From Styela clava (Eukaryota; Chordata; Ascidiacea; Stolidobranchia; Styelidae): 64,000 nucleotides of DNA. The first letter of the stretch is position 1. Every line of letters starts with the position of its first letter. The DNA is taken from contig NC_135261.1 of the NCBI RefSeq assembly GCF_964204865.1, forward strand, positions 7,688,001-7,752,000, written 5' to 3'. The notes beneath the pieces were generated by a model that was given only the letters and a program-made list of their open reading frames with translations, made no database searches and had not been told where the DNA came from. The position numbers and the translations under genes are program-made. Below are positions 1-46,448 of this stretch, in pieces.

Positions 1-1560
1 AAATATTTTTAAAACAAAATTGGCTTTAGTTATTTATATATATACAGTATAGCAAATAATGAACATGCTAGCAGATATCACAAATTTATGAACATATAAA
101 ACGGAACGAAATTGAGTTTCACTTTTGAAAAAAATATAACTTTTTCTTGGTCCTGGCCCCTTTTAAATGTACTCCATCAAAAACACACAAATGGTTAGTT
201 AATAGAAAACATTGCATTATTAAAATGTTGGTTCTATATCCTACATAATAACATCTATTACGCCGCAGTATATATTCAGTGCTCGGAGAGTTTAGTTTCA
301 AATTTTAATTAACAGCACTGCGTGGTGTTCCTGGTGTAAATTCGGAAATAATCTAACTTATAATATATATGAAATCCATGATAGCGTGGTGAATTAATTA
401 TTGCAATGGAGGAATAAATGTTACTGGTAATTTCATAACAACTAATGAAGTATTTTACATAAAGTGGATAAATTATCTGAGTCGATCCTTCGTTACGTTC
501 TTGAGCCTCGGTTTGTTCGACAAATTAAAACTTTCTAACGTTGGAACTACACACCTCATTATAAAATATAATTTATCTTAAATTTTTAAGTGGTTTTTGT
601 TGTCTTCCTTGTTCTCAACAAATTCTATAAACCCAAACAGATTTTACTAATGGCATTCATTGATAGCCTTCGAAAACCTGAACCTCGAGCAAATGGGCTA
701 TTATCAACCTCAATATGGTATTAAGCAAATTTATATGAAAGATGTCATGTCAGCTATGGACTTAACCTCATTCAACGTGTGATGTCGTAACAATCTACCA
801 ACACGTCATGTTCTTTAATAAGCTTATTATAAGTCAAACTTCCTCAATTGCAAATTTGATCAATCGTATCTGTCTTTGAAATTGCCTCTAATTTAACACG
901 ATTTACGACTGCCCTGACCATCTTTCACGTTTAACCTTATTTTTAATTTATTGTTGAAAGAAATGAAAAGGAACTTGCCGGACACCCTTCATGTTTCATA
1001 TCAATCACTAATTACATGATCATTGGTCGTGTCAATTACATGTTTAAAAAATGAGCTCAGAATGAAGTCACTAGAAATATCTCGGCAGTGGAAGGTTTTT
1101 ATGTTTGTAAATTGTTTTACCGTGATCAAGGATATTATTTTTTCAATGATAGATTTGTTATTGATTGACATTTAATTTATTGAACTTATAAGTAAGAGTT
1201 TTAGGATCAAACTCTTTCGTAATTCTTGTTGATTATTTTTTGTTCATCGCATGCAAGAAATCATGTTCTTCTACAGCCTACGCACTTCCGAGTAGTCTTC
1301 CGTTATTCAGATCAATCACTTTTATAAGATTATTCAATTATTATCAATTTTATGTTCGACGATGGAACTCATATGGCTAGTTATATCACGGCAGCATTCG
1401 TATAATGAAGCTTTGACTAATTGGATATTGACGACGTGATACATATACACGAATATATATAGAATAGACACTGGTCTGCTAGATCAGGGGTTCGAGACCT
1501 TTATTGATGTGAGAAATGTGCAGCTAGCTTTTTCCCTGAATACTTAATCCAAATTATTTA
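1..1560 (-). repeat. Relict methyltransferase duplication unit without its coding part
   Basis: Bases 1-310 match the 3' flank of methyltransferase copy A (4796-5105, same orientation) and, inverted, the 3' flank of dead copy B (9073-9330). Bases about 480-1110 match the 5' flanks of copies A and B (6300-6800 and, inverted, 7430-8050). The roughly 1 kb of coding sequence that should lie between them is missing, so the flanks have been joined by a deletion. About 1435-1460 is a decayed version of the TATA-containing promoter block seen at 18.55 kb. No long open frame remains. I infer a duplicate that lost its gene. The similarity was judged by eye. Confidence 0.6.
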
Positions 1561-2149
1561 TTTACTGACAGAGCTTGCAACTCGAAGTTTCTTTTCCATG
1601 TGTTCGTCTGTCTTAACCAATCGAGAAGGAGAATTAATGACGCCCATTTTAGAAAAAGAGTTTTATCCCAATATCTTGAGTCAAAAAGTGATCTATTCTG
1701 TGACTTTTTTCAAATGTGGAAAGTTATTTTGGTCGAGATGTTATCGGTAAAAAGATTCATTTCCAAATACTTTCCTGTCAAATCTGTCTCATTCTAGAAT
1801 ATGCATTTGGCACATTTTCCTTGTGGGTCACATTCGCAGGTTGCACACCTCTGGTCTAGACTAGTTCTACAATTACAAAAATCCATAATGAGGTCTCAAA
1901 TTGCGTTGAAAGGCAGAGCCACAATACAACCAATATGTATGCAGATATCACATCCTCATTGTTACTCTGCCTGCGGTGCCTGGAGCAATAATCAACGTTG
2001 CTTTCTAATTGATAAATAGTTTCCTGTAGGATACAACAGCTTTGAGCTCATCGCACGTGACACTTTATTCTCACACTAGAATTGCTTGAGAAAGCATGTG
2101 AACGAGTTCTGAATCTTAGCGATGGAGGTTATGCTCTCAATACAATTAA

Positions 2150-2330
2150 TTTGCGAAATAATACAAAATTATTTGTTGGTTGGAGGAACTGGCAGAAGAC
2201 ATAGGAAAGTAGCACCCAATCTAATTGGTATCCATGTGCAAACGCAATCTAATCATAGTTCGGCAATAAAGCGCAATCAACAAATCTATGTTAAAATCAA
2301 AATTCTTTCAAATTATACCTCCAAGAAATT
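2150..2330 (+). pseudogene. 3' fragment of a SAM-methyltransferase paralogue
   Basis: This short stretch matches the region of methyltransferase copy D around 19095-19255. It shares the block reading GGAGGAACTG, the CATGTGCAAACGCAATC-type segment corresponding to the KAHPNNFAAI part, and the segment encoding the RRNQQIYD-like motif (here KRNQQIYVKI). The fragment is open for a short distance (the frame starting at 2122 runs to 2364) but has no methyltransferase motif I and no start region. It is a degraded duplicate rather than a gene. Confidence 0.6.
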
Positions 2331-2989
2331 GTATATATATCACAGAAAACGGCCTGTATTTTGATGCAACATAAAAACCAAATCAAATATTTGTTTGAGC
2401 TTTGGCTTAAAGTTACAGTGTCAAACGTTAAAATGGTGTCATTTCCGTGCTTGTGTGTCATAGATGATAATTTGATGAATAATACAATATACGTTTTGTG
2501 ATCATGGAATGGAGAATGAGAATCTTCTGACGACAGATATATATTCTAGGAATCTTCTTATTAAAGCTGAATAAACCAAAAAAAAATTCAATCCATTTAA
2601 ATTTGTATTGTTCGTGTATCCAAGTTCTATAATTACAATTCATTTTTAAAAATGTCTAACAAATAAATCCGATATAGAAAACTAAATGTAATTTGTTGCA
2701 TACCATGTACCATGAGTGATACCATGATAATACATTCAAACTTATTCATTTTGATAGTCGTGGCTGCTGGAGCAATACAATGATCATTAGGAACTTGGCC
2801 CTGTTTTGTTTTTACATCTCAGCCTGCTAAGGCATATTTTACATTTTACCATGGACATATATATTGTATGTCGTTTTCTTTTAAACAAGCGTCGCATTCA
2901 CTTTTTCACTTGCTTTTTTCGGTAATAGAGGGCGACCTAAAAAACTGACACATTAATATTTTAAATAGCCATTTGGAAACAATTCAATT

Positions 2990-3175
2990 TACAGTAGTTT
3001 GCGCTCGAAGTTCTGTTCGCTGATTTTTTTACCCAAAGTTTCAGAAATCTAGGACGCTTGTACAAAAGTTATGCTTTCTCCAGAATATGTTCCAAATTAT
3101 CACCTTGGCATTAGGGACAGACTTACATCCGATAGAAAAAATATCAAATGGGTACCTTATTCATCGTACTTGAAA
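2990..3175 (+). repeat. Copy 1 of an unidentified repeated ORF-like segment
   Basis: This segment, beginning near GCGCTCGAAGTTCTGTT, is homologous to 4000-4400 and to the sequence split by the hAT transposon (9680-9895 plus 15898-16110). It encodes a readable S-P-E-Y-V-P-x-Y-H-x-G-I-R-D-R-L-like string but no complete frame. The product is unknown. See the entry at 9680 for the best-preserved copy. Confidence 0.5.
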
Positions 3176-3199
3176 CCTCTACGTTTTAGCTGTAAGGAT

Positions 3200-3990
3200 A
3201 TTCGAAAGATAATGAGTAACTTCCGTGTTAAAAATGTTTAAAAAGTTTAAGTAAACTTATGAGTGGAGTTATAGTGTACAATAACAACGCTCATGAGTGA
3301 TTAAAATTGGACTTGCTAGCAAACGAGACCAGGATTTTTGATTTTCAATAATATTTGCTTGTTTGACCGATGTCAGATTTTGAAGATATATTTTTTAGGC
3401 TCAGGCATGTTGAGTCTCCAAGCTTACGCAACCTAACGATTAACGATTGAATACTTGTTTCTTAGAAAATTTTCCTTTTTTATTGTTAAATAATAAAATT
3501 CACGACTAACGCGATCGCGGAAGCGTCACAAGTGCTCTAATTTTTTTAATGTCATTGCACCTTAAAACATTTCCATAAACCCCACAGACATTTTTGAAAT
3601 ACTTAAAAGTTATAAACTTCTAGTGAAAAATACAATATTAAATCATTAAAAATTTCAAAGCAATTGGTTTTGTAGTTGGTGAGGAAGGCATAGAAAAAAA
3701 TACCAACAACAACATGATGACAAAACTACTAAAAAGCGAGGCCGACTCCTGATTATGTGAAATTTCAAATGTAGATTGAAATCAAAGTGCCTTCAATTGA
3801 GGGAATAAGACTTAATGAGTTATTGTTATCTGAGTTTCGTGCCCTTCGTGCCCCCCTTTCGAGTAATACCATGAACATTCAATATAAAATTTTTTGTTCA
3901 TTATCTGATAGTAAACAGGACTCATGTGGAAATTGTAGCAAGGGAAATTGAAATTATTTGTCGTGCAAATGTGTAAACTCAACCAGATCA
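3200..3990. other. No gene recognised
   Basis: AT-rich sequence with only short frames in all six readings. I see no splice-bounded exon, structural RNA or clean repeat end. The frame on the minus strand at 3812-4219 overlaps a repeat copy on the other strand and looks fortuitous. Confidence 0.5.
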
Positions 3991-3999
3991 CTGAAATGA

Positions 4000-4470
4000 A
4001 GTAAATTATTTGATTTTGTTTACACTTGAACTTTTGTTTGTTCATGATTGTACCCAAACGTAGGACTTTTTGCATGAACGTTGTGTTTTCCCCGGAATAT
4101 AATCCAAATTCCCTCCAAAGCATATTAGACAGACTAATATCCGCTTCGCAAAGGTGTAAATCACCCTCCAAGTTTTTTGCTGAAGAGCTCTTTCTGTTAT
4201 CTGGGTATGTCAATGGCATAAATATTGATTACCTTGGTACAGCACCTCAGATAAAAGTCTTACAGAGAGGGTTACACCCAGTACAAACATTGCATAACTG
4301 GTCCGTGTTTGTTTGAAAACGAAAATCAAGCGGTGAATATGTAGCGTAATGTGGCGGTGATGAGAAAGTTTTAGGTGCCATTTGGACGATGTAGAATGTA
4401 GGTTGTAGAGGGATAAATTGGGTTGATTAATGATTTCAGTAGGATGATCCCTACATATCAAATTATGCCC
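4000..4470 (+). repeat. Copy 2 of the unidentified repeated ORF-like segment
   Basis: Homologous to 2990-3175 and to 9680-9895/15898-16110. A frame of 96 codons (4026-4316) runs through it and includes a segment like SPEYNPNSLQS and, later, EELFLLSGYVNGI, corresponding to the WSPAEAEYLLS stretch of copy 3 with indels. Downstream sequence 4317-4470 (GCGGTGAATATG onward) also matches the region after copy 3 (16030-16140), so the duplication extends beyond the frame. Function unknown; it may be non-coding. Confidence 0.5.
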
Positions 4471-5184
4471 TTGACTGGCTGGGGAAGCGATTTAAGAAAA
4501 GTATGATAAGGAGGAAGTGTGACGACGGGTGGGGACCTCGTTCACTCGACTAGAACAACTTGGGGGATTTTGAGGGGGATTCAGTTTCTGAGTTTAATGA
4601 TTGTACTGCACAAATCTTTCATAAAAAATGCTCATATATTTTCAAATGATGAGGACCTAAGTTCATTAATTGACAACCAGAAACTTTCTTATCCAATGGA
4701 AATTACCGGATGGGCGAAAATAAACGATACATATTTGTTTTAGGGCTTAGCTTTGTGTCCTAAAACCAGATAATATAACTCAATTCAAATAATGGACTTA
4801 TTTCAAAACAAAATTGGGTGTAGTTATATATATATATATTGTATAAATAATAAACATGCTCAGATATCGCAAAATTATGTACATATAAAACGAAACAAGA
4901 TAGAGTTACACTCGTTAAAGGAAAAATAACTTTTTGGGTTGGTCTGTGGCCCCTAGTAAATATTCAAAAAACACGCAAACGGTCAGTTCATATCGGAGAA
5001 AACATTGCATTAAGAAATACTGGTTGTATATCCTGCTGAATGAATCCAATACGTCGGTGGATATGTCCAGTGCTCGAAGTGTTTAGTTTTAAATTTTATT
5101 TCATTCACATCCCACTATTATTTCTTCAATTTTTGCAAAATGTCTTCAAACTTAAACATTTTTTTCTACTGCAATTTCAATGCA

Positions 5185-6075
5185 TCAAATTAATTTTGCG
5201 AACAAGTATATGGGATAAACCATTTCGACGTTTAAAATGATGTAGTCGTCAGAATTTACATCGTTCAAACGCAGGGATTTCCTGATGTTGTTACCAAAGT
5301 TTTCCAAAGGATCAATATTTGGTTTACCTTGTTTCATTAAAGTGATATAATCGCCAAATGTCCCAAATATGTCCTTAAGCTGGCGTAATGACAATTTCGT
5401 TTCGCAAATGATTTCTTCAAGCAAATCTTTTGTTTTGTTTTGTATTCGATCATAGATCGGCCGATTTCGGTTGAGCGCCGAAAAGTTACATGGATGAGCA
5501 TCTATGTCGATCATAAATTCAGCTATGAATGGATTCAACAACACTTCAAGATGCTTGGAGTCACTCTCCGGTTTGGTCACCTCTTTAATGCTTCCAAAGT
5601 TCATTACATAAAAAGCGCAACATACACCCGGTTTCAAAATTCTTTCACATTCCTTTTCAAATAACCTTATATCAAGATAATGAATCGATGTTCCACAAGT
5701 GATGAGGTCAACTGTGTTGTCTTCTATAGGATATTTGTAACTATCAATCACCTTAAAAAAAACGTTTTTACATTTGTTCAACTTTTTTGCTTCTTTGATT
5801 TTAGCGCTGCTGATATCGACTCCAAGTATTGATTCAAAATACGGAGAAAAAGGTTGTGTTGACAATGTTCCACTTCCACATCCTACATCTAGCATTTGTT
5901 TGAACTTCCCATTTTGAGTGTTGATTAGATGCTTTTTCTTCAAATATCCTATAATTGATTCATGTACAATGTGAGGGTAGGAAGGTCGATATTTTGCATA
6001 AATTTCTGCTAAATCTTCATCTTCGTAAGCGCGAATGAGCTTGGTGTTCTCATTGTCGGTATAGGGCTCTTCCAT
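5185..6075 (-). CDS. Class I SAM-dependent methyltransferase, copy A
   Basis: An intact single-exon frame of 296 residues. Motif I, the SAM-binding glycine loop, is MLDVGCGSGT at residues 61-70; the acidic end of strand 2 is VDIS (D87); motif II/post II is DNTVDLITCGTSIHYLD (119-135); motif III is ERILKPGV (144-151), where the usual second glycine is Val. This layout fits the Tmt1/Crg1 and DDB_G0268948-type small-molecule methyltransferases, presumably soluble. The substrate cannot be read from sequence. About 37 bases upstream of the ATG a splice-acceptor-like TATATTCTCAG (minus strand, ending at 6113) is conserved in dead copy B, suggesting a 5'UTR intron or a trans-splice site. A polyadenylation signal AATAAA (minus strand) lies at 5095-5100. 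It is paralogous to the gene at 18612 and inverted relative to it. The family is clear; the specific name is not. Confidence 0.88.
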   Translation of the reverse strand: MEEPYTDNENTKLIRAYEDEDLAEIYAKYRPSYPHIVHESIIGYLKKKHLINTQNGKFKQMLDVGCGSGTLSTQPFSPYFESILGVDISSAKIKEAKKLNKCKNVFFKVIDSYKYPIEDNTVDLITCGTSIHYLDIRLFEKECERILKPGVCCAFYVMNFGSIKEVTKPESDSKHLEVLLNPFIAEFMIDIDAHPCNFSALNRNRPIYDRIQNKTKDLLEEIICETKLSLRQLKDIFGTFGDYITLMKQGKPNIDPLENFGNNIRKSLRLNDVNSDDYIILNVEMVYPIYLFAKLI

Positions 6076-6111
6076 TATAATTAATTTGCTATATTACGAT
6101 GAACGCCATAT

Positions 6112-6122
6112 CCTGAGAATAT
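6112..6122 (-). promoter_or_regulatory. Conserved 3' splice site just upstream of methyltransferase A
   Basis: On the minus strand the sequence reads TATATTCTCAG followed by GATATGGCG, leaving a 5'UTR of about 37 bases. The corresponding site is preserved in dead copy B (AG at 8304-8305, + strand, preceded by ATATATTTT). It could be the acceptor of a 5'UTR intron or of a spliced-leader addition. Confidence 0.4.
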
Positions 6123-6299
6123 ATGTTAAGTCAGGTAGCAGGTTATGGGACATACCAGTGATTTAATATTATAAGTTACTTTCGCAATAGTCTCACAGGA
6201 AAAAATATTTACGGACTAACCTCCGTATGAATTTAATGATAATTACGCGATGCCAAAACACCTCAATATAAAATATAATTAAATATAGATTTTTTGAAA

Positions 6300-7310
6300 A
6301 ATAATTTCCTGTATTCTGTTCTAAAAAAAATTCTATAAACTTAAACAGTTTTTACTATTGGCATTTATTAAAAGCTTCTGACTACCTGACCCCAAGCAAA
6401 TGGGCTATTGTTGACCTTCATCTGGTAATACACAAATTTATATGGAAGATGTCATGAATACTCAACTATGAACTTTACCTCATTCTACGAGTGATATATA
6501 TCGTTACAACCTAACAAAACTTTTTCTTTGTTAATGCGCTTATTATTATTCAAACCTTTTTATTTGTAAATTTGACCAGTCGTATCCGACTTTGGAGTTG
6601 CCTCTAATTTAACACGATTTACAATTACCTTGGCCGCATTTCACGTTTAACCTATTTGCAATTTATTGTTTGTTCATCGAATGAAAGAAATAAAAAGAAA
6701 CTTCCCAGACACCCTTCATGTTTTATATCAGTCATTATCACATGATCGCTTAGTCATTGTCATTACCAATTTTGAAAATAGAAATCAGAATGAAGTCACT
6801 TCCATTATTCAAATCAATCACTTTTACAAGAGTATTCAATTATTGTCAATTTTATGTTCGATGATAGAACTCAAGTCGATAGAAATATCACGACAGCCTG
6901 TGTAAAAATAAAATTTGACTAGTTGGAACATTGACGACTTGCAAGTCGAATATATAAAGAATAGACATTGGTATAGACCAAGGTGTGCAACCTTCAATAC
7001 AGCAGTGATAGATACGAATAACTTGGTGCAACCACGGGTCGCACCGTAACACTAAACTTAGTCTTTCCAGTAGTTACAGAAATAAAAATAGATTCTTTTT
7101 GTTATTGATGTGAAAATATGTGCAGCTAGTTTTTGTCCCCGAATTCCTATTTCAAATTTTTTATTCAATACCAGAGCTAGCAATTCAAAATCCATTTTCC
7201 AAATGATCATCTATCAGAACCAATCGAAAAGAAGATTTGATGACCCCCATTTTAGAAAAACAAAAGCCAAAAAGTTGAGCCAAAAAGTGCCATATTTAAA
7301 GGCATGAATT
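6300..7310 (+). repeat. Duplicated 5' flank with orphan TATA promoter block
   Basis: The sequence from 6300 to about 6800 matches relic unit 1-1560 and, inverted, 7430-8050. At 6941-6960 lies a plus-strand copy of the promoter block found in front of methyltransferase D: GCAAGTCGAATATATAAAG, with TATATAAA at 6951-6958. No methyltransferase frame follows it. The downstream part 7090-7270 matches 1495-1670. Copy A lies on the opposite strand, so this promoter copy appears orphaned. Confidence 0.5.
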
Positions 7311-8344
7311 ATTTATAAGTTCGATAAATTAGACGTCAAACAATGACAAATATATCATTAAAAAAATTCTATCTTTGATTACATAAAAAATTACATTCGT
7401 AAATTTTTTTTTACTTTTTACTGTCGTGTTATTTCTCGCGACTTCATTCTGAGCTCTATTTTTAAACATGTAATTGGCAATGACTAAGCGATCATGTAAT
7501 ATTGATTGATATGAAACATGAAGGGTGTCTGGGAAGTTTCTTTTTATATCTTTCATGTGATGAACAAACAATAAATTGCAAATAAGGTTAAACGTGACAG
7601 ATGGTCAAGGCGCTCATAGAACGTGCTGAATTAGAGGCAACTTCAAAGACGGATACGATTGGCCAAATTTGCAAATGAAAAAGTTCGACGCATAATAAGC
7701 AAAGAAGAAGTTTTGTTAGACTGTCATGATATCACGCGTAGGATGAGGCAAAGTCCTAAGCTGAGTATTCATGACATCTTCCATATAATTTTGCGTATTA
7801 CCATATGAAGGTCATTAATAGCCATTTGCTCAGGGTTCAAGTTTTCAGAAGCTTTCAATAAATGCCAATAGTAAAAACTGTTTAGGTTTTGTAGAATTTG
7901 TTTACATCAAGGAGAACACAACAAACAAGAAAGGAAAAACAAGCAATAACCACTTAATAATTTTTGAAAAATCTGAAATTATTTATATTTTATAATAACG
8001 CGTTGTGATTCTAATGTTAGAAAGTTTTAATTAATTTTGTCGAAAAAACCTAGGCTCAAGAACGTAACGAATTATCCACTCACTTTGAAGCAGGGAGTAG
8101 CTAGATATTTCATAATTTAAAGAATTTATTTTCGTGACTGACTCTGATATTTTATTTGCTTCATGTAAAATATTTCATTAGTTGATATAGATTACGACTA
8201 ACATTTAATCCTCCATTGCTCAACTCGTAATTATTGTTTTCCTGTGAGACATTACATCACTGGCATGTTCCATAACCAGCTGCCTGAATTAACATATATT
8301 TTCAGGAAATGGCTTTCATCGTAACCGTAATAGCAAAGTAATTA

Positions 8345-9072
8345 GAAAGGAAGAGCCCAACACAGACAATGAGAACACCAAGCTCATTCGCGCCTACGAA
8401 GATAAAGATTTAGAACAAAGTTATTCCAAATAACGACCTCTATACCCTCACATTGTACATGAATCAATTATAGGATAATTAAAGAAAAAGCATCTAATCA
8501 ACACTCAAGAGGGCAAGTTCAAACAAATATTCTATAAAAGACAACACAGTTGATTTCATCCCTTGTGCAACATCGACTCGTTATCTTGATATAGAGTTAT
8601 TAGAAGAATGTGGAAAATATTTGAATCCCAGTGGATGTTTTGCTTTTTATATAATGAACTTTGGAAGCATTAAAGAGGTAATCAAACCGGAAAGTAACTC
8701 CAAACATCTTGAAATAATGTTGAATCCATTCATAGCTGAATTTTTAATATACACATGATCATCCATGTAACTTTTCGGCTCTGAACAGAAATTGGCCAAC
8801 CTACGATCAAATACAAAACAAAACGAAAAAATTGCTCAAAAATCATTTGCGAAACGAAAATGTCATTACGCCAGCTTGAGGACATATTTGGGACATTTGG
8901 CGATTATATCTCTTTAATGAAACAAGGTAAACCAAATATTGATCCTTTGGAAAAAATTGGTAACAACATCAGAAAAGCTCTGGGTTTGCACGATGTTTAT
9001 TGTGACGAATACATCATTTTAAGTTCGAATTATTTTGCAACAATTGAAGAATTAATAGTGGGATGTAAATAA
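8345..9072 (+). pseudogene. SAM-methyltransferase copy B, dead
   Basis: Closely related to copy A but inverted. The start codon region reads ATTAGAAAGGAAGAG instead of ATGGAAGAG. There are in-frame stops soon after (YSK-stop-RPLYP and IIG-stop-LKKK). A deletion of about 170 bases joins the GKFKQ region directly to EDNTVDLIT, removing the whole SAM-binding motif I. Further stops follow in the middle. The last part (8860-9030) is still readable as LRQLEDIFGTFGDY and on to NIDPLE, nearly identical to copy A, then diverges before a stop at 9070. The 3' flank to about 9330 is also shared with copy A. The close match of the remaining sequence points to a fairly recent death. Confidence 0.85.
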
Positions 9073-9679
9073 TTAAAATTTGAAACTAGGCACTTCAAGC
9101 ACCGGACATGTCACGTGGCGTATTATATTCATTCAGTAAGATATAGAACCAACATTTATTAATGCAATGTTTTCTCCGATAATAACTGACAGTTAGCCTG
9201 TTTTTTTATCGAATACATTGAATAGGGGCCAAGGACTAAGAAAAAGTTTTTGTCCTTTAACAGGTGTAACTGCTTTTTGTATGTAAATAAATTTGTGATA
9301 TATAATTACAGCCAACTTATTTTTTAAATATTTCCATCATTTCAATTGAATATTGTATGTACTATCTAGGACACAACGCTGAGTCCTAAAACAAATATGT
9401 TCAATTTTTGTTCGCCCTCTAGTAATTTCTGTTGGATATCGATTGAATATTCATACGCATTTTCTACGCAAGATTTGTGCAGGAAAATCATTGAATCTAA
9501 CAATATATCTACTGCGTTTAACGCATAGTAGCACCGAAAGACCCGGTAAATTGAACAGCATTACTATAACCAGTAATTTGCTATTGTTTATATTTTTTAT
9601 TTTATCAGGTGAATATCATTTATGTCGTATTTTGGGTCACACCAATTTCTCAATTACTCCTCTGAAAATGATATTAATA

Positions 9680-9895
9680 AGTATTCAATTTTGTTTGCGC
9701 TTGAACTTCTGTTTGTGTATTATTATACCCCAAAATTTTATAAATCAAAGACGCTTGTACCAAAAGTATGTCTTCAGAATATGTTCCAAGTTACAACATT
9801 GGCATTAGAAACAGACTTGCATTCGTTGGGAAAAATTGTCGATCACTCACTTGGTCTCCTGCTGAAGCGGAATATCTTCTGTCAATAGTAACAAT
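9680..9895 (+). repeat. Copy 3 of the repeated ORF-like segment, left part, split by a hAT insertion
   Basis: A frame beginning at 9768 (MSSEYVPSYNIGIRNRL and on to WSPAEAEYLLSIVTI) runs into the hAT transposon at 9896. If the transposon and one copy of its 8-bp target duplication are ignored, the frame continues at 15898 with IFTAAPKKVVQ, later HGIYNPYWFHGK, to a stop at 16033-16035. That would give a product of about 90 residues. The family is unknown to me. Related, decayed copies are at 2990 and 4000. It might be an exon of a lost host gene co-duplicated with the methyltransferase, or an old repeat. Confidence 0.45.
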
Positions 9896-10000
9896 CAGTG
9901 GCGGCGCGTCAATAGGGCCAACCGGGGCAATACCCCGGTTGTTTTTTCGGTATAATAAAAAATATTCGAAAAATACCTCAATATCGGTTGCACAGACTGT

Positions 10001-12957
10001 TAGGCCGCGAGCCGAGGCCCTGAAAAACGCCTAGAAAGTGAGTTTCGTAGCGCACATCAGGTAACTACCTGAAAATGATTTTAAAATGTGCCTTAAAAAT
10101 TTAGTAACAAATATTGCCTTGTTCCCACTTCCAAAAGTTGCACGTTTTACGGAAAAGACGCTTTTACTACAAGAAATATGTGCTACGATCTGTCCTATAT
10201 TCTCTACATTTTCGGCATGGAACAATGACTTCTGCATGACGTAACAATTGAATTAAACCAGCTGTTAGCGAGCGGATGAATATTAGTTATTACTGCTCGA
10301 CCTTGCGCTGAGTTGGGCATGCTTTCCATAGCCCTGTTTAGTTATTATTAGTTAAGTTATGCTAAGACGTTGTTGAAAAATGTATAAGTAAGTTATTAAA
10401 CACTTGTAGATCCTTACCACGGATATGGGCCGTGAGACGAAGCCATGAAAACGCCCAGAAAATGAGTTTCGTAGCGCACATCTGGTACCGTAACTAAATA
10501 AATTCTTCAGTTTTGTGTGAAAACGAACATAATGAACGCATTACAGCTTGTTCCACAATCCTGGTGCGAAATTGAATATAAGAGGTTCCCGGAAATTCAA
10601 TAACCATAAGTTCACAACACATACATAAGAACTATGCAATTCGAGAGCCCTACAGCACACAAACACAAATGTATTCCTGTAATGTTTTGCCTGACCAAAA
10701 TCGGACTTCCTCAGTCAATCATAATGTATTAGGTAGATTACGAAAAATATGGCAAACATGTAACCAACAACAAAAAATACTTTAATTGTGTGACAGGAGT
10801 TGGGAGTGAGCTCGAAAGCAGCGACACCAACAACGCTGATTCACATTTGCGAATAAATTTTATGTAATAACCACAAGCAGTTTACAACAAGAACAGCATA
10901 AAAAGCTACATCCATTTTATAGAGGCTATCAAACGTATTTATTTTTAAGCAATGAAGTCACAAATTAACATCGTGAGCACGAAAACACAAATAAATCAGT
11001 TATTTCTCACTTAGAAATTTACAGCAAAAGTCAAAAAAATTAAATGAATGTACATAAAATAGTGAACAGAAATATTACAATTTACAATTAATCTTTTTTT
11101 AGTTTATGTGGTTATGTATTTGAACAAAGGCAATAATATTTCTAGAAACAGGACTACGACACTAACAAATGTCCGAAAAAACAACAAATAAATGATACTT
11201 ATTAAATCAACTGTAATATCTAATTCACTTTCTTCTGAATTGTTTTCGAAATCCACTATCTCAAAAATCGACTTTTCCTCTATAAGTGTACTGTGATTTT
11301 TGCAGTCAATACAAAAACAAAAATCTGTGCAATTTAAGTTGATTTTGGCACACTTTCATAAATTATTTTGACTATTTTTCTTACACTTGCAGTTTGCCAA
11401 CTCAAGAACTGATTTGAGGGCCACATGCTTCTTCAGTGAATCATTGTTGGGTGGAGAGTATAATCCTTAGGTTTGACACTTGACAGTGTTAAATAGACGT
11501 GCCCTGGTATCATTTACATTCTTCATATCCTCTTCAAATTCCTCAGCTTTATTTATTAATGCCTCGTTAACCTCAAAAGATCTTCATAGTCGAGGGAAAA
11601 AAATGAATTGAAAATCTCAATGAAGTCTCCAACATGAATTTGATGGGCAGTTCCAATTGCAGAAAAGTGCTAAAGTATTTCAATATGAATAGCCCATCTA
11701 AGCTGTTTGCAACTATTATGATTCTCATATACCTTTAAGCTTCAAGACTTCTTGTTTAATCCATTTTATAGCACTGATAGCAGCAGGGATCAGAGCCTGC
11801 GTTAGGTCGGATTGGTGGAACATTGCCGTTTTCTTTTGTAGTACAGTATCTAAAATGAGGAAGAAAATAATATTTGGAGCAGCATGAGTTTAAAAATACC
11901 CCTAAACACTAACTAATACCTTGAATACATAATGCATTTTATCTGATGTACTAAATGAGCGTATATATGCTCATTGCATGTACTACAGTCCAGCAGTGTT
12001 TGCATACCATTACTAGACTATATCTACACTAAATTTTGATATATCACAGTCTGAAATGTCCTATGACAGTATGAGTATGGACTATAGACTATATTTTAAA
12101 ACATCAACTGTTTGTCTACAACTTGATTTCTCACCTCTCAATCGTTTCCAATGCTACCTTTCTTTCCACTCCGCGACTCCGGCATAACTTATCATTGCTT
12201 CCCAGGTTCTTGTCGACTCTATGAATTTAGATTTAGACCAACCGACATTAGTGAAATTGAATAATTTCTTCTCTTTCACACAATCGTGCATTACAGAAAC
12301 AGCCATTCATTTATATTTCCAAATATGCTGTGGCCTATATAGTAGTATAAGTCTGCTGAATAGTCAAGAAGAGTCATTAAATTAATCATAAACATTTCAT
12401 GCAAGCCAGAAAATATCGTTGTTTGTGACATATTATTCTAGGTCTAGCCTTCCTTGGTTGGAGTTACCGCTCCGTACCTATTTAACAACGTCTCATGAGC
12501 TAGTGCTCAACTAATATTGCTATTTATGGTAAGGATATACAAGTGTTTAATATCTTACCCATACTTTTCAACACCTCCTTAGAATAACTGAACTAATATT
12601 ACCGGTAACTGAAAAACTATGGAAAGGCTACTCAACGCAAAAGCGAGCAGTTGTAGTACATCTGATATTCATCCGACCACTGGGGATCCACCTACAGCTG
12701 ACTAACTTGACTGTTACGTCGTGCAGAAGTCTGCGTTCATTGGCCCATGATACCGGAAAAGCAGAGAAAATAGGACAGATGGTAACACATATTTATTGTA
12801 GTAAAAGCGTCTTTTCTGTAAAACGTGCAACTTTTGGAAGTGGGAACAAGGCAATATTTGTTACTAAATTTCTAAGGAACATTTTAAAATCATTTTCAGG
12901 TAGTTACCTGATGTGCGCTACGAAACTGAAAGATAAATGTCCTCGGCTCGCGGCCTA
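10001..12957. mobile_element. Nested element with roughly 430-bp inverted arms
   Basis: Left arm 10001 to about 10430 and right arm about 12510 to 12957 are inverted copies. Shared blocks include TAGGCCGCGAGCCGAGG at the tips (10001-10017 and the reverse complement ending at 12957), TTTCGTAGCGCACATCAGG, the AAAAGACGCTTTTACTAC block, and the AACACTTGTAGATCCTTACCA block. The sides differ by scattered substitutions and small indels. A second partial direct copy of the tip sequence is at 10427-10490. The flanking trinucleotide TGT on both sides (9998-10000 and 12958-12960) could be a 3-bp target duplication, but such a short match is weak. The interior carries remnants of an unidentified minus-strand gene. 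The superfamily is undetermined. Confidence 0.7.
11340..12315 (-). pseudogene. Degenerate multi-exon gene of unknown family inside the nested element
   Basis: Three minus-strand stretches look like old exons. (1) About 12305 down to 12134 reads MAVSVMHDCVKEKKLF then FTNVGWSKSKFIESTRTWEA, with an in-frame TAG, ending in a donor-like AG/GTGAG. (2) About 11850 down to 11733 reads TVLQKKTAMFHQSDLTQAL then IPAAISAIKWIKQEVLKLK, bounded by an acceptor-like ATTTTAG and a donor-like GTATATGAG. (3) About 11660 down to 11362 reads VGDFIEIFNSFFSLDYEDL, then a frameshift, then VNEALINKAEEFEEDMKNV, a stop, and NDSLKKHVALKSVLELANC with a CKCKKN tail. I do not recognise the family. Its place between the inverted arms suggests it was the element's own gene. 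Confidence 0.4.
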
Positions 12958-13393
12958 TGTCTACACTAGCCATATTCTCCCGACATGGTTCATTTTTCGC
13001 TCGCAAAGCCTTCGCCGAACGTCGACGGGGCGACGCCGATTTTGCCCCGGTTGTTCATTGTATATCGTATTCTCTCTTTTATCTTCCACTCGCCGCATTT
13101 GTCTCGTTTGTTTTCTGTTTCTTTTACTAAATCATCGGGGCCGATCGGGGCTAGCCCCGAAATTATGACGACACAATGCCGACGTTTCTTACAACAACGT
13201 GTTGACATATTCGCATTCCTTCTCGTTCGTTGGTTGCTTGAAGAGTTGATAGTTTCCTCGCCTTCGTTTTTGTCGCTTGTTTCGCTATTTGAATCAGTTA
13301 GAGACCTTTGGTCCATTTGCTTTCGATTTTCCACATTCCTTTTGAGCTCCTCACTTCTTTCCGGCTTCGCATTTCTTAGCCTTAGACCTCATA

Positions 13394-15475
13394 ATGAATA
13401 AGGTTGATGCACTACTTCGCACTCCGTTTTCGCAGCTGCCGCTGGAACAAAAATCAGAGGTACAACGTCTTGGGCCTTATCAACCAAAAAATTGTTCACT
13501 GGAACAATCCCATTACGGAGGAAAGCGTCGGCGTACATTCTGCGCAGAAACTTGGTTTAAAAAACACGAATGGTTGTGTTACAGCGAGGACAAAAATGCA
13601 CTTTTTTGTTTTTATTGCCTACTTTTTGCTATCGCCCGTGACTCACGTTGGTGTAAATTTGGTTTTAGAGATCTTAAACATCTTTCCGAGCGTGCCAGGG
13701 ATCATCAATCTTCTATGGAGCATCTGGACAATGCAGTAAAATACCGAACATTCAGAAATGTTAATATTGCAGCACAGTTGGATGAAGGACGCGCGGTTTC
13801 TATTCGTCGGCACAACCAAAACGTCGAGAAAAACCGCCATGTTCTCGGTCGATTGATAGATGTTTTGAAGTTGAAGTTCACGAGCTGTCCCTCCGTGGGC
13901 ACGATGAACGGGCTGGCTCTTCTAATAGAGGGGTATTTTTGGATATGGTGGAATACACCGCATCCCTAGATACAGTATTGAGAGATCATCTTGATGCCGC
14001 ATGTGTTTCGAAAGGGACATCTAAGGATATCCAAAATGATTTGCTCGACTCAATGTATAAAATTTATTTACAACATTTGGCTCTGGAAATTGAGAATTGC
14101 CAGTTCCTTTCGATTCAGTCTCACGAGACAACTGACATCACGTGCGTTTCCCGACTGGCTGTGATTTTTCGGTTTGTGAAAGATGGTAAACCTACCGAGA
14201 GATTTCACAGCTTTGTACCAATCGTTGATCGCACGGCTTGCGGGATATCGGCTGTACTGAAAGAAGTGTTACAGCCTTACAACGCGAAGTCAAAATTGAT
14301 AGCTCAAACTTATGACGGCGCGGCAGTCATGAGTGGGTCGAAACATGGTGTTCAAGTTTATATAAAAGAAGATTTTCCTCATGCGCATTTTTTACATTGT
14401 TATGCACACCAATTTAACCTCGTTATTAAAAATATGTGTCTTGATACCCCTCTCGTCCGTATATTTTTTGCAAATGTTTCGGGGTTTTCTTCATTTTTTT
14501 CCGTTTCGCCGAAGTGCTCTGACCTCCTTCGCCAGATATGTAGCCGCCGTCTTCCAGCTTGTGCACCAACACGTTGGAACTTCCAATCACGCGTGGTGCA
14601 GGGCGTGTCCGAAATTAGGTCTGAGCTCATTGAGTGTTTCAATGGCATTCAGAGCTCTCCGGTTTGGGACGAACGCTCTGTGAGGGAGGCGGCAGGTCTA
14701 AAGCGTCTGCTAGAAGATGGTGAGTTTTCATTTTTTCTCTCTTTTTTCTCCACAATATTCTATCACGTGGATGTATTATACGGCGCATTGCAGTCAAGGC
14801 TAATGGATGGAGCGTCTGTGCAGTCGTGTATTTCAGACTTCTGCGATGCTGTATCTCGTATCCGGGAAACAATAAAATACGACGATACATGGAGTGCTTC
14901 TTTACGCCGCGGGCAAACAACGCAGCGTTTGATTTTGTCTGCAAAGGAATGCTGTGACATTCTGGTGAATCAAATAGGCGATCGTCTGCGCACTGAACAC
15001 CTTGCCGCGTTCTCTTTGATGAACCCCAAAAATTTTTCAAAATTTGCACGTCAATTTCCCATCCATTTGTTGGCTACTGTCTCCAAATTTTACCCCATGA
15101 TAAACGTGGGTAAATTGGAAAATGAATTGCGATGTATATACACCAATCAAACTTTTTTGGACATCACATCAACTTGCGCGCTCTATGGGTTCCTCATAGA
15201 TAACACTCTAGTAACTACCTTTGCGGCGTCTGCAAAATTTCTGGACATCATTTTGACGACGCCTATTTCTTCCGCCGACGCAGAGCGAACATTCAGCACG
15301 CTGAAGCGTAAAAACGTATCTCAGAAACACAATGAAGCAAGATAGATTAAATTCCTTGGCTGTTTTATCCATTCACAGAGACGTTATTTCTGGGATGCAT
15401 GACTTTAATCAGCGCGTTATTGAGCATTTTGCTTCCAAGAAACCGCGGCGTGTTGCATATATGTTCAAGCAGTAG
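13394..15475 (+). pseudogene. TTF-type zinc finger / hAT-family transposase (ZMYM1-like), frameshifted
   Basis: Two overlapping frames (13394-13969 and 13939-15345) plus a third short one belong to one protein. The N-terminal part has a TTF-type finger (RRTFCAETWFKKHEWL, then CFYCLLFA, then a D-x-x-H-x-H-like stretch). About 13856-13878 the frame shifts; past that point LSLRGHDERAGSSNRGVF continues the family pattern. A second shift at about 15307-15311 separates SADAERTFSTLKR from KTYLRNTMKQDRLNSL, and the reading then runs to a stop at 15473-15475. The RNase-H-like core has YDGAAVMSG (second Asp) and SADAER (Glu). The first catalytic position reads SHETTD where the family has DETTD: the codon at 14122 is CAC, one change from GAC. 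With two frameshifts and this change it cannot be functional. Confidence 0.88.
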
Positions 15476-15897
15476 AAGTCTAGCAGCATATATATCTATG
15501 AGTGAGCGACGCATGTCCTTATCTTTGCATTACCTTTCCTTTCTTCATAGTAACGTTTTAAACCTTATTTTAGGTTTTGTCTGCTTTCCCGAAGTTTCTG
15601 TTAATATGTCATTGTATTTATCTGGGTAAATATTGCCTTTCCTTTTGAAAGAGGTTTTAAAATAAACTATGTCTATATTTATTAATCCCTTGACTTGGAC
15701 CGGTTTTAAAGACACTTTCTTATCGTTGAAAATTGTCGCTTTTGCCGATTGGTTGTTACCGATGAAATGGTTTTTATACTCATAAAATGATGGGAGAACT
15801 TACAGCGCTCATCCTGTCCCCGTAGATGGGGGTGACTTGGTCCCGCAGTAGCTTGCCCCGGTTGTCAAAATGACCACGCGCCGCCACTGGTAACAAT

Positions 15898-16140
15898 AAT
15901 ATTTACAGCAGCTCCGAAGAAAGTCGTACAGAGACCGTTACCTTCAATTAGATACACGAAAGTGGTAGACATTTCCAAACATGGCATATACAATCCGTAT
16001 TGGTTTCATGGCAAAATTAAAAAATCCAAACGGTGAATACGGAACGTTACGTGATGGTGCCGAGGAAGTTCTGAAGTTCACTAGATCGATGTAGGAAGGT
16101 TGATGGAGGCGACCAGTGATTTCCGCATTACATTACAATG
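15898..16140 (+). repeat. Copy 3 of the repeated ORF-like segment, right part
   Basis: This continues the segment broken by the hAT element at 9896-15889. The frame matching the left part reads IFTAAPKKVVQRPLPSIRY and ends at 16033-16035. Sequence to about 16140 (GGTGAATACGGAACGTTACG onward) matches 4330-4450 downstream of copy 2, confirming that both belong to one duplicated block. Confidence 0.45.
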
Positions 16141-16280
16141 ATTGAAAATTTTGCGCAACGGATGAAAGGCCATTTAAAACATTTGATAAGGAAAACACAA
16201 CGTTTGGGCAAAACGTCCATGTCAATAAATGAATAAGTTTAAATCCTCAGAAAAAGTTTTGATCGATTGAATATTGATGC

Positions 16281-16440
16281 ATTATTGCAAGTCGATCAAA
16301 TAAAGAGAATAGTTATACCAGTTCCATGAGTGCAGAAATCCATCGAAAAGAAAAGCGATACAGAAAGAAAGGTATTCATACGAGTCATACGATTGTATGA
16401 AGATAAATAATTAGCATATACCTATGCAATACATAACTAA
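16281..16440 (+). pseudogene. Promoter and first codons of methyltransferase D, truncated copy
   Basis: Bases 16281-16440 repeat the stretch 18541-18700 in front of and within methyltransferase D: ATTATTGCAAGTCGA, a TATA-like CAAATAAAG, the leader CCAGTTCCATGAGTGCAGAAATCCAT, and coding bases for TLIRLYEDKELAYMYAIY-like residues with stops (GAAGATAAATAATTAGCATA). The similarity ends abruptly after about 16430. It is a truncated duplicate with no functional frame. Confidence 0.7.
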
Positions 16441-16704
16441 AGTGAACTAAGAAATGTTATTCAAACGGCACGTAGTACTTTCATGGTCGCATGATTAAAT
16501 TACTGATACGAAACAAACAATTTTTTATAACATTTATTTTATCAGAAATTAACTAAAAGTGAGAAAGCTGCGCTTGTGGAGTTTATAATATCGTGACTTT
16601 ACTTACGTGTTAATATAGAAGTTGCCAAATTTTACGCTGTGATACTTATATATTTACCATCGAGCAACACTGCCATTGAATAACTTAAGTGGACAGTAAA
16701 TAAC

Positions 16705-16864
16705 AAGTGGACACCAGAATTTCATTTGTTTTAGCGAGGTTTGTTTGTCCAAAAGTCTTAGATTTATCTAACTGTCTGTAGCGGGCTTGCTATGATTTCA
16801 TGGAGGAGGCCCAGTCTTTAAACTTAACTAAATGCCAATAAATTTGAAATTATTGGGCAGGCAA
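16705..16864. repeat. Dispersed repeat, copy 1 of 2
   Basis: AAGTGGACACCAGAATTTC, the TTTGTTTTAGCGAG block, GCGGGCTTGCTAT, the CCCAGTCTTT block, ATGCCAATAAAT and GGGCAGGCA occur in the same order, inverted, at 62685-62844. Each copy is about 160 bp. No family name recognised. Confidence 0.65.
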
Positions 16865-17789
16865 CTTTTATTCTATGATTTCTCTTAATCGATGACAGCG
16901 TAAATTAAAAAAAATGTCGCATTGGAATGAATTTTTGTGATATTTTTCAAATAACTAATGTAGTAAGATCTGTAGTGATTAAATTATTAGAATCATTAAA
17001 TAAAATTATTTAAAGTTTAATGCTAGTTTCTCCTCGGAGGTTACTATAGGTCGCAGACTTGGAAAACTTCTTCCAAAATTTTTTTTTAATTTCTCTCTTT
17101 TTCACGTCATGCGTCGAACGCCTGATACCCAATACGTAGCTGGCGTTGTAGCTCAAATGGCCATTGTGAAGACGCTTTTAAGGAGATCATTTCTGAAGTT
17201 ATAAAACGCAATATGGTTGGCGAGTTGACCTATTCAATATGTGTAAGACATAGTAACGCCAACAAAGGCAGACATCTGTATAATGTCAGCAGTCTTACAG
17301 CGCTAACGTTACAACAGACTCCATTATTTTTTGAATATGAACAAAATATGTCACTTAAGACAGACAACTCGTCACTGCTGTAGATCGGAGTGTTATCAAT
17401 ATAGGCGAGTTGTCCGCATCCCGGTTTTAGTGATAATTTTTAAAAAGCTTCAATAGTTGTTACGTTCTTAAGCCCAGGTTTTGCGACGAAATTGATTAAA
17501 ACTTTTTAACGTTAAAACCACAGCAATTCATTTTGAAATATAACTACATTTTGATTATTTTGAAAGTAGTTGCATGTTTCTTTCTGTCTTTCTTGTATCC
17601 AAGAAAATTCCGTGAATGTTAACAATCTTCAATTGTCTCTTATTTAAAGATTTTGAAATTCTAAACTTTAAGTAGAAGGGCTAATAATGAAATTTGTCCG
17701 CTTATGCACAAATTTATATGGAAGATGTTATGCGCCCTCAGATATGAGTTTTACCTCATTCTTCATCCGATATCGTGACAAGTAAATGT

Positions 17790-18320
17790 TTAAAATAAGA
17801 GCTCAAAATGAATTCCCTGAAAATATCTTGACAGTAAATTTTGTTTGTTCATCGCACGTAAGAAATGCCATCGTTGTGGCGGAGCCGGCGCTCCTGTAGT
17901 ATTTGTAACAAGATGACGCCCATCCTGAACAACCCTAACCTGGTACACATACCATGTTCAGGTTGTGCGTCATCTTGGTACGAATACTTCGGACGCACCC
18001 ACTTCCCAGCCATCTTTCATATCGATCACTATTACATGATCGCAAATTCATTGTCAAGTGCATGTTTAAAAATAGAGTTCAGAATGAATTCCCTGGAAAT
18101 ATCTGGACAGTAAAATTTGTTTGTTCATCGCACGCAAGAAATACCAACGTTGTGGAATACACTTCCCAACCATCTTTCACATTTTATATCGATCACTATT
18201 ACATGATCGTCGAGTCATTGTCTAGTACATGTTTAAAAATAAGGTCAATTGTGTTGAAAAAATAGAGCTCAGAATGAATTCCCTGGAAATATCTTGACAG
18301 TAAAATTTGGTTGATCGGAC
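17790..18320. repeat. Imperfect tandem repeat in the methyltransferase D upstream region
   Basis: The unit containing CAGAATGAATTCCCTG, GAAATATC, GACAGTAAAATTTG, the TGTTCATCGCACGCAAGAAAT block and the CGATCACTATTACATGATCG palindrome is repeated about two and a half times (17790-17890, 18030-18150, 18180-18320). The same unit occurs once each near 960-1110, 6680-6810 and, inverted, 7430-7580, upstream of the other methyltransferase units. A small inverted-repeat MITE (17887-17999) is inserted in the first unit. Confidence 0.6.
17887..17999. mobile_element. Short MITE of the GCTCC-AAGTATG family
   Basis: A foldback of about 113 bp. The left arm begins GGCGCTCCTGTAGTATTTG and the right arm is its imperfect reverse complement, ending ACTTCGGACGCACC. 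The ends match the family that fills the FAN1 introns, here reduced to little more than its arms with the sub-terminal AACCCTAACCTGGTACACAT between them. Confidence 0.55.
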
Positions 18321-18556
18321 AGTGATACATAATTGCAGGGCCGGTGAATAAGGTGAAACAGTCGTTTAAAGTTCAGACTACTGTAAATGCTCCACTTTTT
18401 CGTTTCATAAATTGTTGTCGGGGTTCAGATTTTGATAAATGTCGTTCGTGTAGTCTTTTCCGAAAATATCGAAAAGTTCATGTTTAGTGATAGATCTAAA
18501 GTTGCCGTGTCAGACCGCGTTCTTAAAAAAGTTTGGATCAATTATTGCAAGTCGAA

Positions 18557-18565
18557 TATATAAAG
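18557..18565 (+). promoter_or_regulatory. TATA box of methyltransferase D
   Basis: TATATAAAG lies 47 bases upstream of the ATG at 18612, so transcription would start near 18587-18595 with a leader of about 20 bases. The surrounding block GCAAGTCGAATATATAAAG is duplicated at 6941-6959 and, weaker, at 16287-16305 and about 1435-1460, always upstream of a methyltransferase unit or relic. Confidence 0.55.
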
Positions 18566-18611
18566 AGGATGGTTAGACCAGTTCCATAATTGCAGAAATC
18601 CATGGAAAAGA

Positions 18612-19520
18612 ATGGCGTCGAAATGCAGCGATAAGACTCTCATACGATTGTATGAAGATAAAGAATTAGCATATATGTATGCGATATATCGCCCCCCCCC
18701 CTACCCCACCGCGGTACGTGAAACAATTATCAAGTATTTAGAGAAAAATTGCAATGCGAAAAATAAAGAAGGAAAGTTTGAAAAAATGTTGGATGTAGGA
18801 TGTGGAAGTGGAACATTGTCAACGCAAACTTTTGCATCGTTTTTTGAATCAATACTGGGGATTGATATCAGCGAAGCTAAAATTAAGGAAGCAAAAAGAC
18901 TGAACAAATGTAGAAACGTTGCTTTCGAATGTATAGAAGGTTATGAATTCCCTGTGGAAAACAATAGTGTTGATCTTATTACATGCGCTTCTTCCATTCA
19001 TTTTCTTGATCTAAAATTATTTGAAAAAGAATGTGAACGAATTCTAAAACCTGGCGGATGTTGTGCTGTCTATGTAATTAATTGGGGAAATATTACAGGC
19101 TTCCGCGTTGGAGGAACTGACTGGAGACTAAAGATGGTTTTGCTCTATTTGATTGTTGAAGATTTTTATATCAGTGTGAAAGCACATCCAAATAATTTTG
19201 CGGCAATTCGACGAAATCAACAAATTTATGATCAAATCCAAAATTCATCTAAAATAAAGCTTCAAGAAATAGTAAGTGGACGAGAAATGACGCTTTGTCA
19301 ACTCAAAAATGTTTTCCGCACTTTGGGTGACTACGTCATTTTTATGAAACAAGAAAAGCCGGCTAAAGATCCTCTCGAGATTTTTGACCAAAACATTAGA
19401 CAAGCACTCAAGCTCGGAAACGATTTATCGGATGAGAAAATATTTTTAAAATCTGAAGAGGTGTTTCCCATTTTTGTGTTTACAAAGCAAGTCACTTCCA
19501 GACCCGACAGAGTTTTATGA
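18612..19520 (+). CDS. Class I SAM-dependent methyltransferase, copy D
   Basis: An intact single-exon frame of 302 residues, clearly paralogous to copy A. Motif I is MLDVGCGSGT (59-68), the acidic strand-2 end is GIDIS (D85), motif II is NNSVDLITCASSIHFLD, and motif III is ERILKPGG, complete here whereas copy A has Val for the second Gly. The family resembles Tmt1/Crg1 and DDB_G0268948-type methyltransferases acting on small molecules; the substrate is unknown. Near the N-terminus a run of ten C (18691-18700) encodes RPPPYP where copy A has RPSYP, so D carries one extra residue and a slippage-prone tract. The start is fixed by the TATA box 47 bases upstream. The C-terminal tail ends FTKQVTSRPDRVL, longer than in copy A. 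Confidence 0.88.
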   Translation: MASKCSDKTLIRLYEDKELAYMYAIYRPPPYPTAVRETIIKYLEKNCNAKNKEGKFEKMLDVGCGSGTLSTQTFASFFESILGIDISEAKIKEAKRLNKCRNVAFECIEGYEFPVENNSVDLITCASSIHFLDLKLFEKECERILKPGGCCAVYVINWGNITGFRVGGTDWRLKMVLLYLIVEDFYISVKAHPNNFAAIRRNQQIYDQIQNSSKIKLQEIVSGREMTLCQLKNVFRTLGDYVIFMKQEKPAKDPLEIFDQNIRQALKLGNDLSDEKIFLKSEEVFPIFVFTKQVTSRPDRVL

Positions 19521-19855
19521 GCAAAATTGCATTTATTGAAGAAAATCACTAAATATATATAAATGTATACTGTCAATCTGTCATATTTCATTGTTTTAAT
19601 TTCGATTGTTAGCCCAACCTAATTATTTCATGAAAAGTAACATTATCAGGCTTGTACGTGGTAATGGAATTCCCATGGGAAACGTCCCATCCCAAGCTTT
19701 TCGTAGTGTGAAGTCCAGGGATTTCGCAAGTTTTTGCTAGGCTCCCAAATACTGTTTTTGTTATTGTATATTTTCACTGTTTTTAAACTTTAAAAACGTT
19801 ACTGTTCGTGATATGTTTGCTTATATATGTATAGTATAGCCCATACAATTTTGAC

Positions 19856-30724: not shown

Positions 30725-31120
30725 CAGGGATGTCTAAACTGCTGCCCGCAAGGAAATATTGTGCGGACCGCAGATAAGTGCCCTTTTTGAATGGTGTGCC
30801 CGCGAAACACGTTTTTAGTTATTCTGCTACGTGAGAGCAATTCCAATCCTTTTGCGTCGCAAAGCCTATACCAGTACTCGAGTGCTAGTGTCATTTTAGT
30901 AAAAATAGCTAGCAGAATCCAGTTGCAAAATACACAATATTATAAAAACGTGTTTCTCATTGAATTCGTTTAACTCACCATTACAGCAAGGAACCATAAC
31001 ACACCGTAAGATCAATAACAAAATATAACATTTTTATTGCCTGAAACTATAAGAAAAAATCTTTTAAATAAAGGTGCGGCCCGCGGCTTCACCCAATTAC
31101 TTGAATCTGTCCCTCCTGTA
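30725..31120. mobile_element. Possible hAT-type non-autonomous element
   Basis: The left end is CAGGGATGTCTAAACTGC followed by TGCCCGCAAGG; the right end, reverse complemented, is CAGGAGGGACAGATTCAAG with GCCGCGGGCCGC further in. The architecture fits other hAT-type repeats in this window, but the ends match only partly and no target duplication is visible. Confidence 0.4.
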
Positions 31121-31431
31121 ATAAAGGTTGCACCCCCTTGACTTAAACCATAAATAGCAGGATGCTCTGGTTTTTCTAAAAGCCAGACGCGTTTAGGAAT
31201 TTCAAAATTTGGCTTTAAAAGTGGCTCGTGTGTTTAAAGAATTTTTGTTAACGTTTGCGTGTAGTGAATGAATGTAAACGGAGCTGTTACCGAATAAGTC
31301 TTTTGGTGGATATTTTCAACACCGTCGATTGTGAGTTTTCCCGACCCCATCGTCCTGTTATTACGGCCACAAGCCATAATTTGAGGCCGATATCGTCTTT
31401 GCACAAGGCACATTCAAAGTGTACAATTTTA

Positions 31432-45899: not shown

Positions 45900-46448
45900 T
45901 CATTTTAAACATCGCTCAAAATATGTGCTCCCAACGTAACCACCCCTCATTGATTTGTATACATTCTGTTCAAATGCACGTCTGTTTTTTGTTAGCATCT
46001 CCGCTGCTTCTTTGTTTAAAGGGTCATCAGGGTTGGGCTCAAGAAAAAGATATTGAAGCCCATAAATGACAGAGTTAATGGTAAGAACAGGTTTCCAATC
46101 TTCTCTGAGAATATTCAAACAAACATTTCCTTCAAGGTCAATGTTAGGATGGTAAACCATGGTTTCACATTTTACTTTTGGGGCATCATGAGGGTAACCT
46201 TGCCCAACTTTAAATGTAAAAGTGAATTTACCATTTTTGTAAAACCCCTCATCAGGGGCAATGATAAGCTTGAAATTCAGTAAATCATTGGGATCAGGGA
46301 AAATAGTACTACATGTAGGTGGTAACTGCAGTTCATTTAAATCCTTAGTAATTCGAAGTTGAGCCGCTGAAGCTTTTCTTCTACCAGATGAAGCCCCCGA
46401 TGCTTCGTCATTTTTCTTTTGCTGTTTTAGTGAAAATAATTTTATCAT
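45900..46448 (-). CDS. UBE2M: NEDD8-conjugating enzyme UBC12
   Basis: A single uninterrupted exon encoding 182 residues (human 183). It begins [10 protein letters not shown], the N-terminal docking extension that binds the NEDD8 E1, followed by a Ser/Ala-rich linker and the UBC fold: HPN at 100-102, catalytic Cys110 in [25 protein letters not shown] and the C-terminal [16 protein letters not shown]. It receives NEDD8 from NAE1-UBA3 and passes it to cullins with RBX1 and DCN1-type partners, in nucleus and cytosol. Only a few conservative changes are seen against vertebrate UBE2M, so the gene is under strong constraint. No introns, in contrast to the multi-exon vertebrate gene. The start is fixed by the conserved MIKLFSLK. 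Confidence 0.97.

Follow-up and report, generated by a model that had tools for sequence, protein, structure and literature searches.

The methyltransferase genes at the left end of the stretch of Styela clava DNA analysed here very probably belong to a cluster of an old, large and apparently intronless family of class-I SAM-dependent methyltransferases whose evolution at the DNA level follows a birth-and-death pattern. We refer to the whole stretch, 64,000 nt in length, as the window; its positions 1-64,000 correspond to NC_135261.1:7,688,001-7,752,000, and negative coordinates lie to its left. An earlier note on this DNA had proposed duplication, inversion and decay of a methyltransferase locus, and this is well supported: the copies are of mixed age, they have duplicated flanks, and most are broken. 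All of the pieces described in that note were recovered when positions 1-24000 were compared with the window by self-BLAST, with scores up to 592 bits (A/B); 20 dinucleotide shuffles of this segment gave at best an off-diagonal score of 41.0 bits, which we took as the chance level. The similarity extends outside the coding part, into shared 5' and 3' flanks. The pieces are present within the 20 kb to which the earlier note had confined them, but tblastn and self-BLAST of the joined region place the start of the array at about -18,500, roughly 18.5 kb to the left; a window can split a cluster in two, as here. Outside the window we found four extra gene bodies (X1, A1, B1 and X2), together with second copies of the partial units C, F and E. 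The order from left to right is X1, the second C and F, A1, B1, E1, X2, and then C, F, A, B, E and D. Two of the seven gene bodies (A and D) have full-length frames; the other five (X1, A1, B1, X2 and B) are broken. The gene content around the cluster is eukaryotic, and includes a FAN1 HTH domain, a ubiquitin-conjugating enzyme, an Asparaginase_2 protein and pieces of an MFS transporter.

Genes A (5185-6075, minus strand) and D (18612-19520, plus strand) each consist of one open frame, of 296 and 302 aa, respectively. As previously described, both are intact, in that each is a full-length class-I SAM methyltransferase frame scoring above the cut-off for Pfam Methyltransf_11 (PF08241; 59.2 bits for A and 66.3 bits for D, with a cut-off of 21.2). 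SAM motif I (DVGCGSG) is present in A and D, is deleted in B and B1, and has lost one glycine in X2. Judging from a dS of about 2.3, which is saturated (dN/dS 0.15), A and D are old relatives. An open frame alone is no proof of a working gene, as A and X2 illustrate. In a 20-row family alignment, for which we picked the rows, A departs from all 19 other rows at two positions (V151 and T121 in place of G and S, respectively) and from 18 of the 19 at a third (I146 in place of V); D has one such departure, I144, where V is found in 18 of the 19 others. The dN/dS between D and a family member at 17.78 Mb is 0.32, which, like the A-D value, points to constraint. Since its split from A1, A has acquired 6 nonsynonymous and 4 synonymous changes, with 5 more left unpolarised, and constraint on A over this interval is at most weakly indicated. 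We infer that D is the cluster member most likely to be working; A is open, yet may be losing or changing function.

The sequences support a function at the level of a small-molecule methyltransferase; carboxyl or O-methylation would be the most likely activity, and the family could have a link to secondary or detoxifying metabolism. Matches to NCBIfam models were all below cut-off, no Rfam match reached the gathering threshold, and an AlphaFold2 model built from two sequences had a mean pLDDT of 38.5, too low for judging whether the fold is Rossmann-like.

A tblastn search of the 376.6-Mb assembly (379 contigs) with A gave 113 matches, which correspond to at least 94 places on 14 contigs when matches less than 600 bp apart on the same strand are merged. 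At 50 of the 94 places, on 12 contigs, a single stop-free match runs unbroken for 240 residues or more, and the coding part is apparently intronless there. Sixty-three of the 94 places have a neighbour within 20 kb, and six of 45 adjacent pairs are inverted. The 50 apparently intronless places, and the spread of the family over so many contigs, are what would be seen if the genes were processed retrogenes scattered from one parent. We consider this extremely unlikely, because the local copies have long 5' and 3' flanks and a TATA promoter in common; these common flanks and promoters rule out retroposition for the local copies, while the family as a whole could still have had a distant origin of this kind. 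A contig scan with D for prokaryote relatives gave 28 pattern matches and no confirmed relative.

The analysis took in 40 genome stretches, and the phylogenetic tree was built from 41 of 61 matched open frames, namely those of at least 230 aa. The 20 shorter frames were dropped, distant members outside these stretches are absent from the tree, and a 268-aa downstream frame stands in for X1. Several long branches were flagged, none of them among the cluster rows or the 17.78-Mb gene. D, X1 and X2 form a group (support 99/97) inside a larger group that adds the 17.78-Mb gene (100/99), and A joins next (98/94). The four cluster rows require two changes on this tree, and form a single group in 0% of 200 bootstrap trees. 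Hence, the proposal that the copies are closer to each other than to unlinked family members holds for D with X1 and X2, but D joins the 17.78-Mb gene before it joins A, and A matches that gene no worse than it matches D. A matches the 17.78-Mb gene, which lies 10 Mb away, at 55% (361 bits) and D at 55% (341 bits). Descent of all the copies from one parental locus, as the earlier note had envisaged, was not borne out: the cluster does not form a single clade, and the lineages of A and D separated long ago. On the same grounds, with an A-D dS of about 2.3, a single local founder is ruled out.

Self-BLAST bore out the description of A and B as an inverted pair with common 5' and 3' flanks. B (about 8344-9024, plus strand) is an old A-type pseudogene, a broken copy of A, with an A/B dS of 0.28. 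The 5' flank of A, delimited by self-BLAST and a flank search (6258-7289, minus strand), and that of B (7309-8250, plus strand) are the two arms of the inverted pair, which meet near 7300; 6324-6797 is 82.6% identical to 7440-7903. The 3' flank of A (4690-5156, minus strand) is common to B (9018-9438, plus strand, by self-BLAST; 71%) and to unit C (7-310). B has stops at A codons 29 and 44, has lost about 160 nt including SAM motif I, and has a changed start codon. Its twin to the left of the window, B1 (about -6486 to -5777, plus strand), has both stops and the same deletion of about 160 nt with identical ends. Because these disabling lesions are common to both copies, B was dead before B and B1 split; its death is therefore not recent, contrary to the earlier note. 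The JC-corrected divergence between B and B1 is 7% for the body and 15% for the 3' flank. B and B1 retain 81 and 94 of A's 21-mers, respectively, in opposite orientation. Because the dead copies keep such stretches identical to A in reverse, the two head-to-head A/B pairs might conceivably, if the palindrome were transcribed, give rise to hairpin or antisense small RNAs and thereby silence A-type genes, while conversion would maintain the match between the arms. We regard this idea as distinctly unlikely.

The two parts of A's 5' flank differ in their distribution. Of 337 candidates, 40 were scored, and among these the gene-proximal part (from about 324 to 1032 of the query) occurred in this cluster alone, in 8 rows representing six units (A, A1, B, B1, C and C1). 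The distal part (6972-7289) has matches on many contigs and represents a dispersed repeat, located on the A side of the centre of the palindrome. The presence of this repeat would fit a model in which the gene is cargo of a mobile element and the common flanks are the element itself, but that model is at odds with the restriction of the gene-proximal flank to this cluster among the scored candidates, and we consider it very unlikely. A non-exhaustive look for terminal repeats or target duplications around the unit found none. The 5' flank of D (17459-18316, plus strand) contains three internal repeat copies and shows distant similarity to those of A, B and C (66-84% in short stretches; 66% for 17459-17780 with 7722-8068). 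D also has a promoter consisting of a TATA box and a AGACCAGT element (approximately 18557-18582, plus strand). In D, X1, X2 and the 17.78-Mb gene, the TATA box is 42-55 nt and the AGACCAGT element 25-37 nt before the ATG; E has a degenerate version of this promoter. The sequence TATA[AT]A was not found in the 120 nt before A.

Three partial units lie within the window. Unit C (7-1690, minus strand, the orientation of A) consists of a 3' flank (7-310) and a 5' flank (403-1690), with about 92 bp (311-402) in place of the gene; self-BLAST thus agrees with the earlier description of a unit that has only flanks. C seems less likely to be an empty site that predates insertion of the gene, because the split that gave rise to D is older and D nevertheless has a 5' flank of related sequence (66%); flank and gene were therefore joined before C arose. 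The relic F (1994-2333, plus strand, from DNA similarity) had been described as a 3' relic. It does exist, but it is longer than had been thought, and it derives from the middle of a D-type gene rather than from the 3' end only; tblastn places it at 2061-2363, matching D codons from about 130 to 231. Self-BLAST likewise recovered the promoter and 5'-end relic E (16281-16434, plus strand), in which a degenerate D-type promoter is followed by the first codons of the gene, interrupted by a stop in frame. Its second copy, E1 (-5060 to -4801), differs from it by 6% (JC-corrected).

The most recent layer of the cluster is a block of 11.1 kb that is present twice. Self-comparison of the joined region aligned -18372 to -7293 with -2791 to 8286 at 96.6% identity (393 differing of 11,143 aligned columns, 3.5%), and window positions 1-8286 thus lie in the second copy of the block. 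Recognising this duplication, and the identical tract described below, requires the sequence to the left of the window, and the earlier note had therefore missed both. The JC-corrected divergence is 3% for the 5' flanks of A and A1 and 3.5% for X1 and X2. At the right edge of the first copy there is about 740 bp of different sequence, after which B1 resumes; the left edge falls inside gene X, such that X2 lacks its end from about codon 256. The recent losses are those of A1, X1 and X2, all of them left of the window. A1 (-10395 to -9509, minus strand) is 97.5% identical to A but carries one additional T within a T run and lacks 5 nt elsewhere. X1 (-18500 to -17603, minus strand), a D-type copy with a D/X1 dS of 0.28, carries one additional A within an A run. 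X2 (-2788 to -2024, minus strand), truncated at the block edge, has lost a motif-I glycine (G66A), and its open frame, 265 aa long, finishes in foreign sequence; there are 11 nonsynonymous and 4 synonymous changes in X2, versus 4 and 5 in X1.

Within the block there is a tract of 4,058 bp with 0 differences, although the rate in the rest of the block would predict about 152 substitutions over this length. This tract begins at -1670 and its right part occupies window positions 1-2387; the nearest differences on either side are at positions -1671 and 2388 of the second copy. Unit C and relic F both lie inside the tract, which has no open frame for a methyltransferase. The tract is most naturally, and probably, explained by gene conversion, with an assembly artefact as the alternative. 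If the left block (X1 to A1) and window positions 1-8286 were two haplotypes assembled in tandem, the recent layer would be false, and the in-window copies A, B, C, D, E and F would still stand. A divergence of 2.5-3.5% is within the range for two haplotypes, and an identical stretch of 4,058 bp is unusual. Nonetheless, haplotypes of one locus should match throughout, which weakens this explanation: the homology ends at 8286 with a unit offset of 15.58 kb, B and B1 differ by 7-15% past that point, and X2 is cut inside the gene. We therefore consider an artefact unlikely, and favour a genuine duplication of the block.

Taken as genuine, the local duplications are of different age, comprising the inverted A/B pair, the gene-less unit C, the D-type inverted copy X, and then the 11-kb block that occurs twice. 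Promoters and flanks were copied along with the genes, and most copies were broken by frameshifts in base runs, deletions, stops and a duplication breakpoint. One simple tandem duplication does not fit the mosaic of identities (7-15% between B and B1 beside 3% between A and A1), and the order of events, as read from these identities, is not unique. We propose that neighbouring copies undergo unequal exchange and ectopic gene conversion and that these drive the turnover, that the latest conversion produced the 4,058-bp identical tract, and that D presumably continues to act as a working small-molecule methyltransferase.

The cluster is a compact, layered record of gain and loss in an enzyme family within about 38 kb, in which an inversion, a gene-less unit, a gene-truncating breakpoint, base-run frameshifts and a probable conversion tract can be read together. 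We found no description of it in the titles and abstract beginnings of the literature searched. With respect to the enzyme, the first PDB match of A alone (E 2.2e-8), and of a profile of 20 family members (E 2.3e-22), is yeast Tmt1, a trans-aconitate 3-methyltransferase (PDB 3g5t). However, the alignment covers only the first half (profile positions 16-151 of 287) with low identity, rather than the full length. Similarly, A and D are above the cut-off for Methyltransf_11, but the great breadth of this family leaves the substrate unspecified. With respect to the mode of evolution, birth-and-death with ectopic gene conversion is a general process in tandem gene families. The cluster resembles such families in its tandem and inverted copies, its pseudogenes, its mixed ages and its homogenised tract, with no difference of principle, although here the process is read from one genome. 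It leaves knowledge of gene-family evolution unchanged; rather than a new kind of system, it shows a known process at work in an enzyme family that is itself known, and its layers are unusually legible.

A dispersed repeat of two modules (window 6972-7289) adjoins the centre of the palindrome formed by A, a full-length methyltransferase frame, and B, an old A-type pseudogene. Matches to this repeat are found on many contigs, with one further match inside the window, at 31011-31136. Between B and the remains of a hAT-type transposase lies an inverted-repeat element (10003-12927), the arms of which (10041-10218 and 12750-12927) are 94% complementary; a target duplication was not established for this element. 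The transposase itself (13394-15345) is decayed and split over at least two frames, with a Dimer_Tnp_hAT match slightly over the cut-off (21.5 bits; cut-off 21.4) and a DUF4371 match slightly under its own (30.0 bits; cut-off 32.1). Within D, the other full-length methyltransferase frame, a run of ten Cs at about 18690-18702 adds one proline relative to A and to X1, a broken D-type gene left of the window.

Elsewhere in the window, a 44-bp unit is perfectly repeated in two tandem copies (36786-36872). Genes with few introns may be common here, since a ubiquitin-conjugating enzyme (45903-46472), which we take to be UBC12-like, and an Asparaginase_2 protein (58957-60012) are each encoded by a single long, uninterrupted frame.

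Outside the window, farther left than the cluster, another pair of direct repeats lies at about -37300 to -35700 and -29500 to -27900 (window coordinates), with pieces 69-74% alike. On contig C14, two distant members of the methyltransferase family (C14:16326931 and C14:16336066) are near-identical and about 9 kb apart, with branch lengths of 0 and 0.006 in the family tree; this pair is a recent duplication, separate from the window's cluster.
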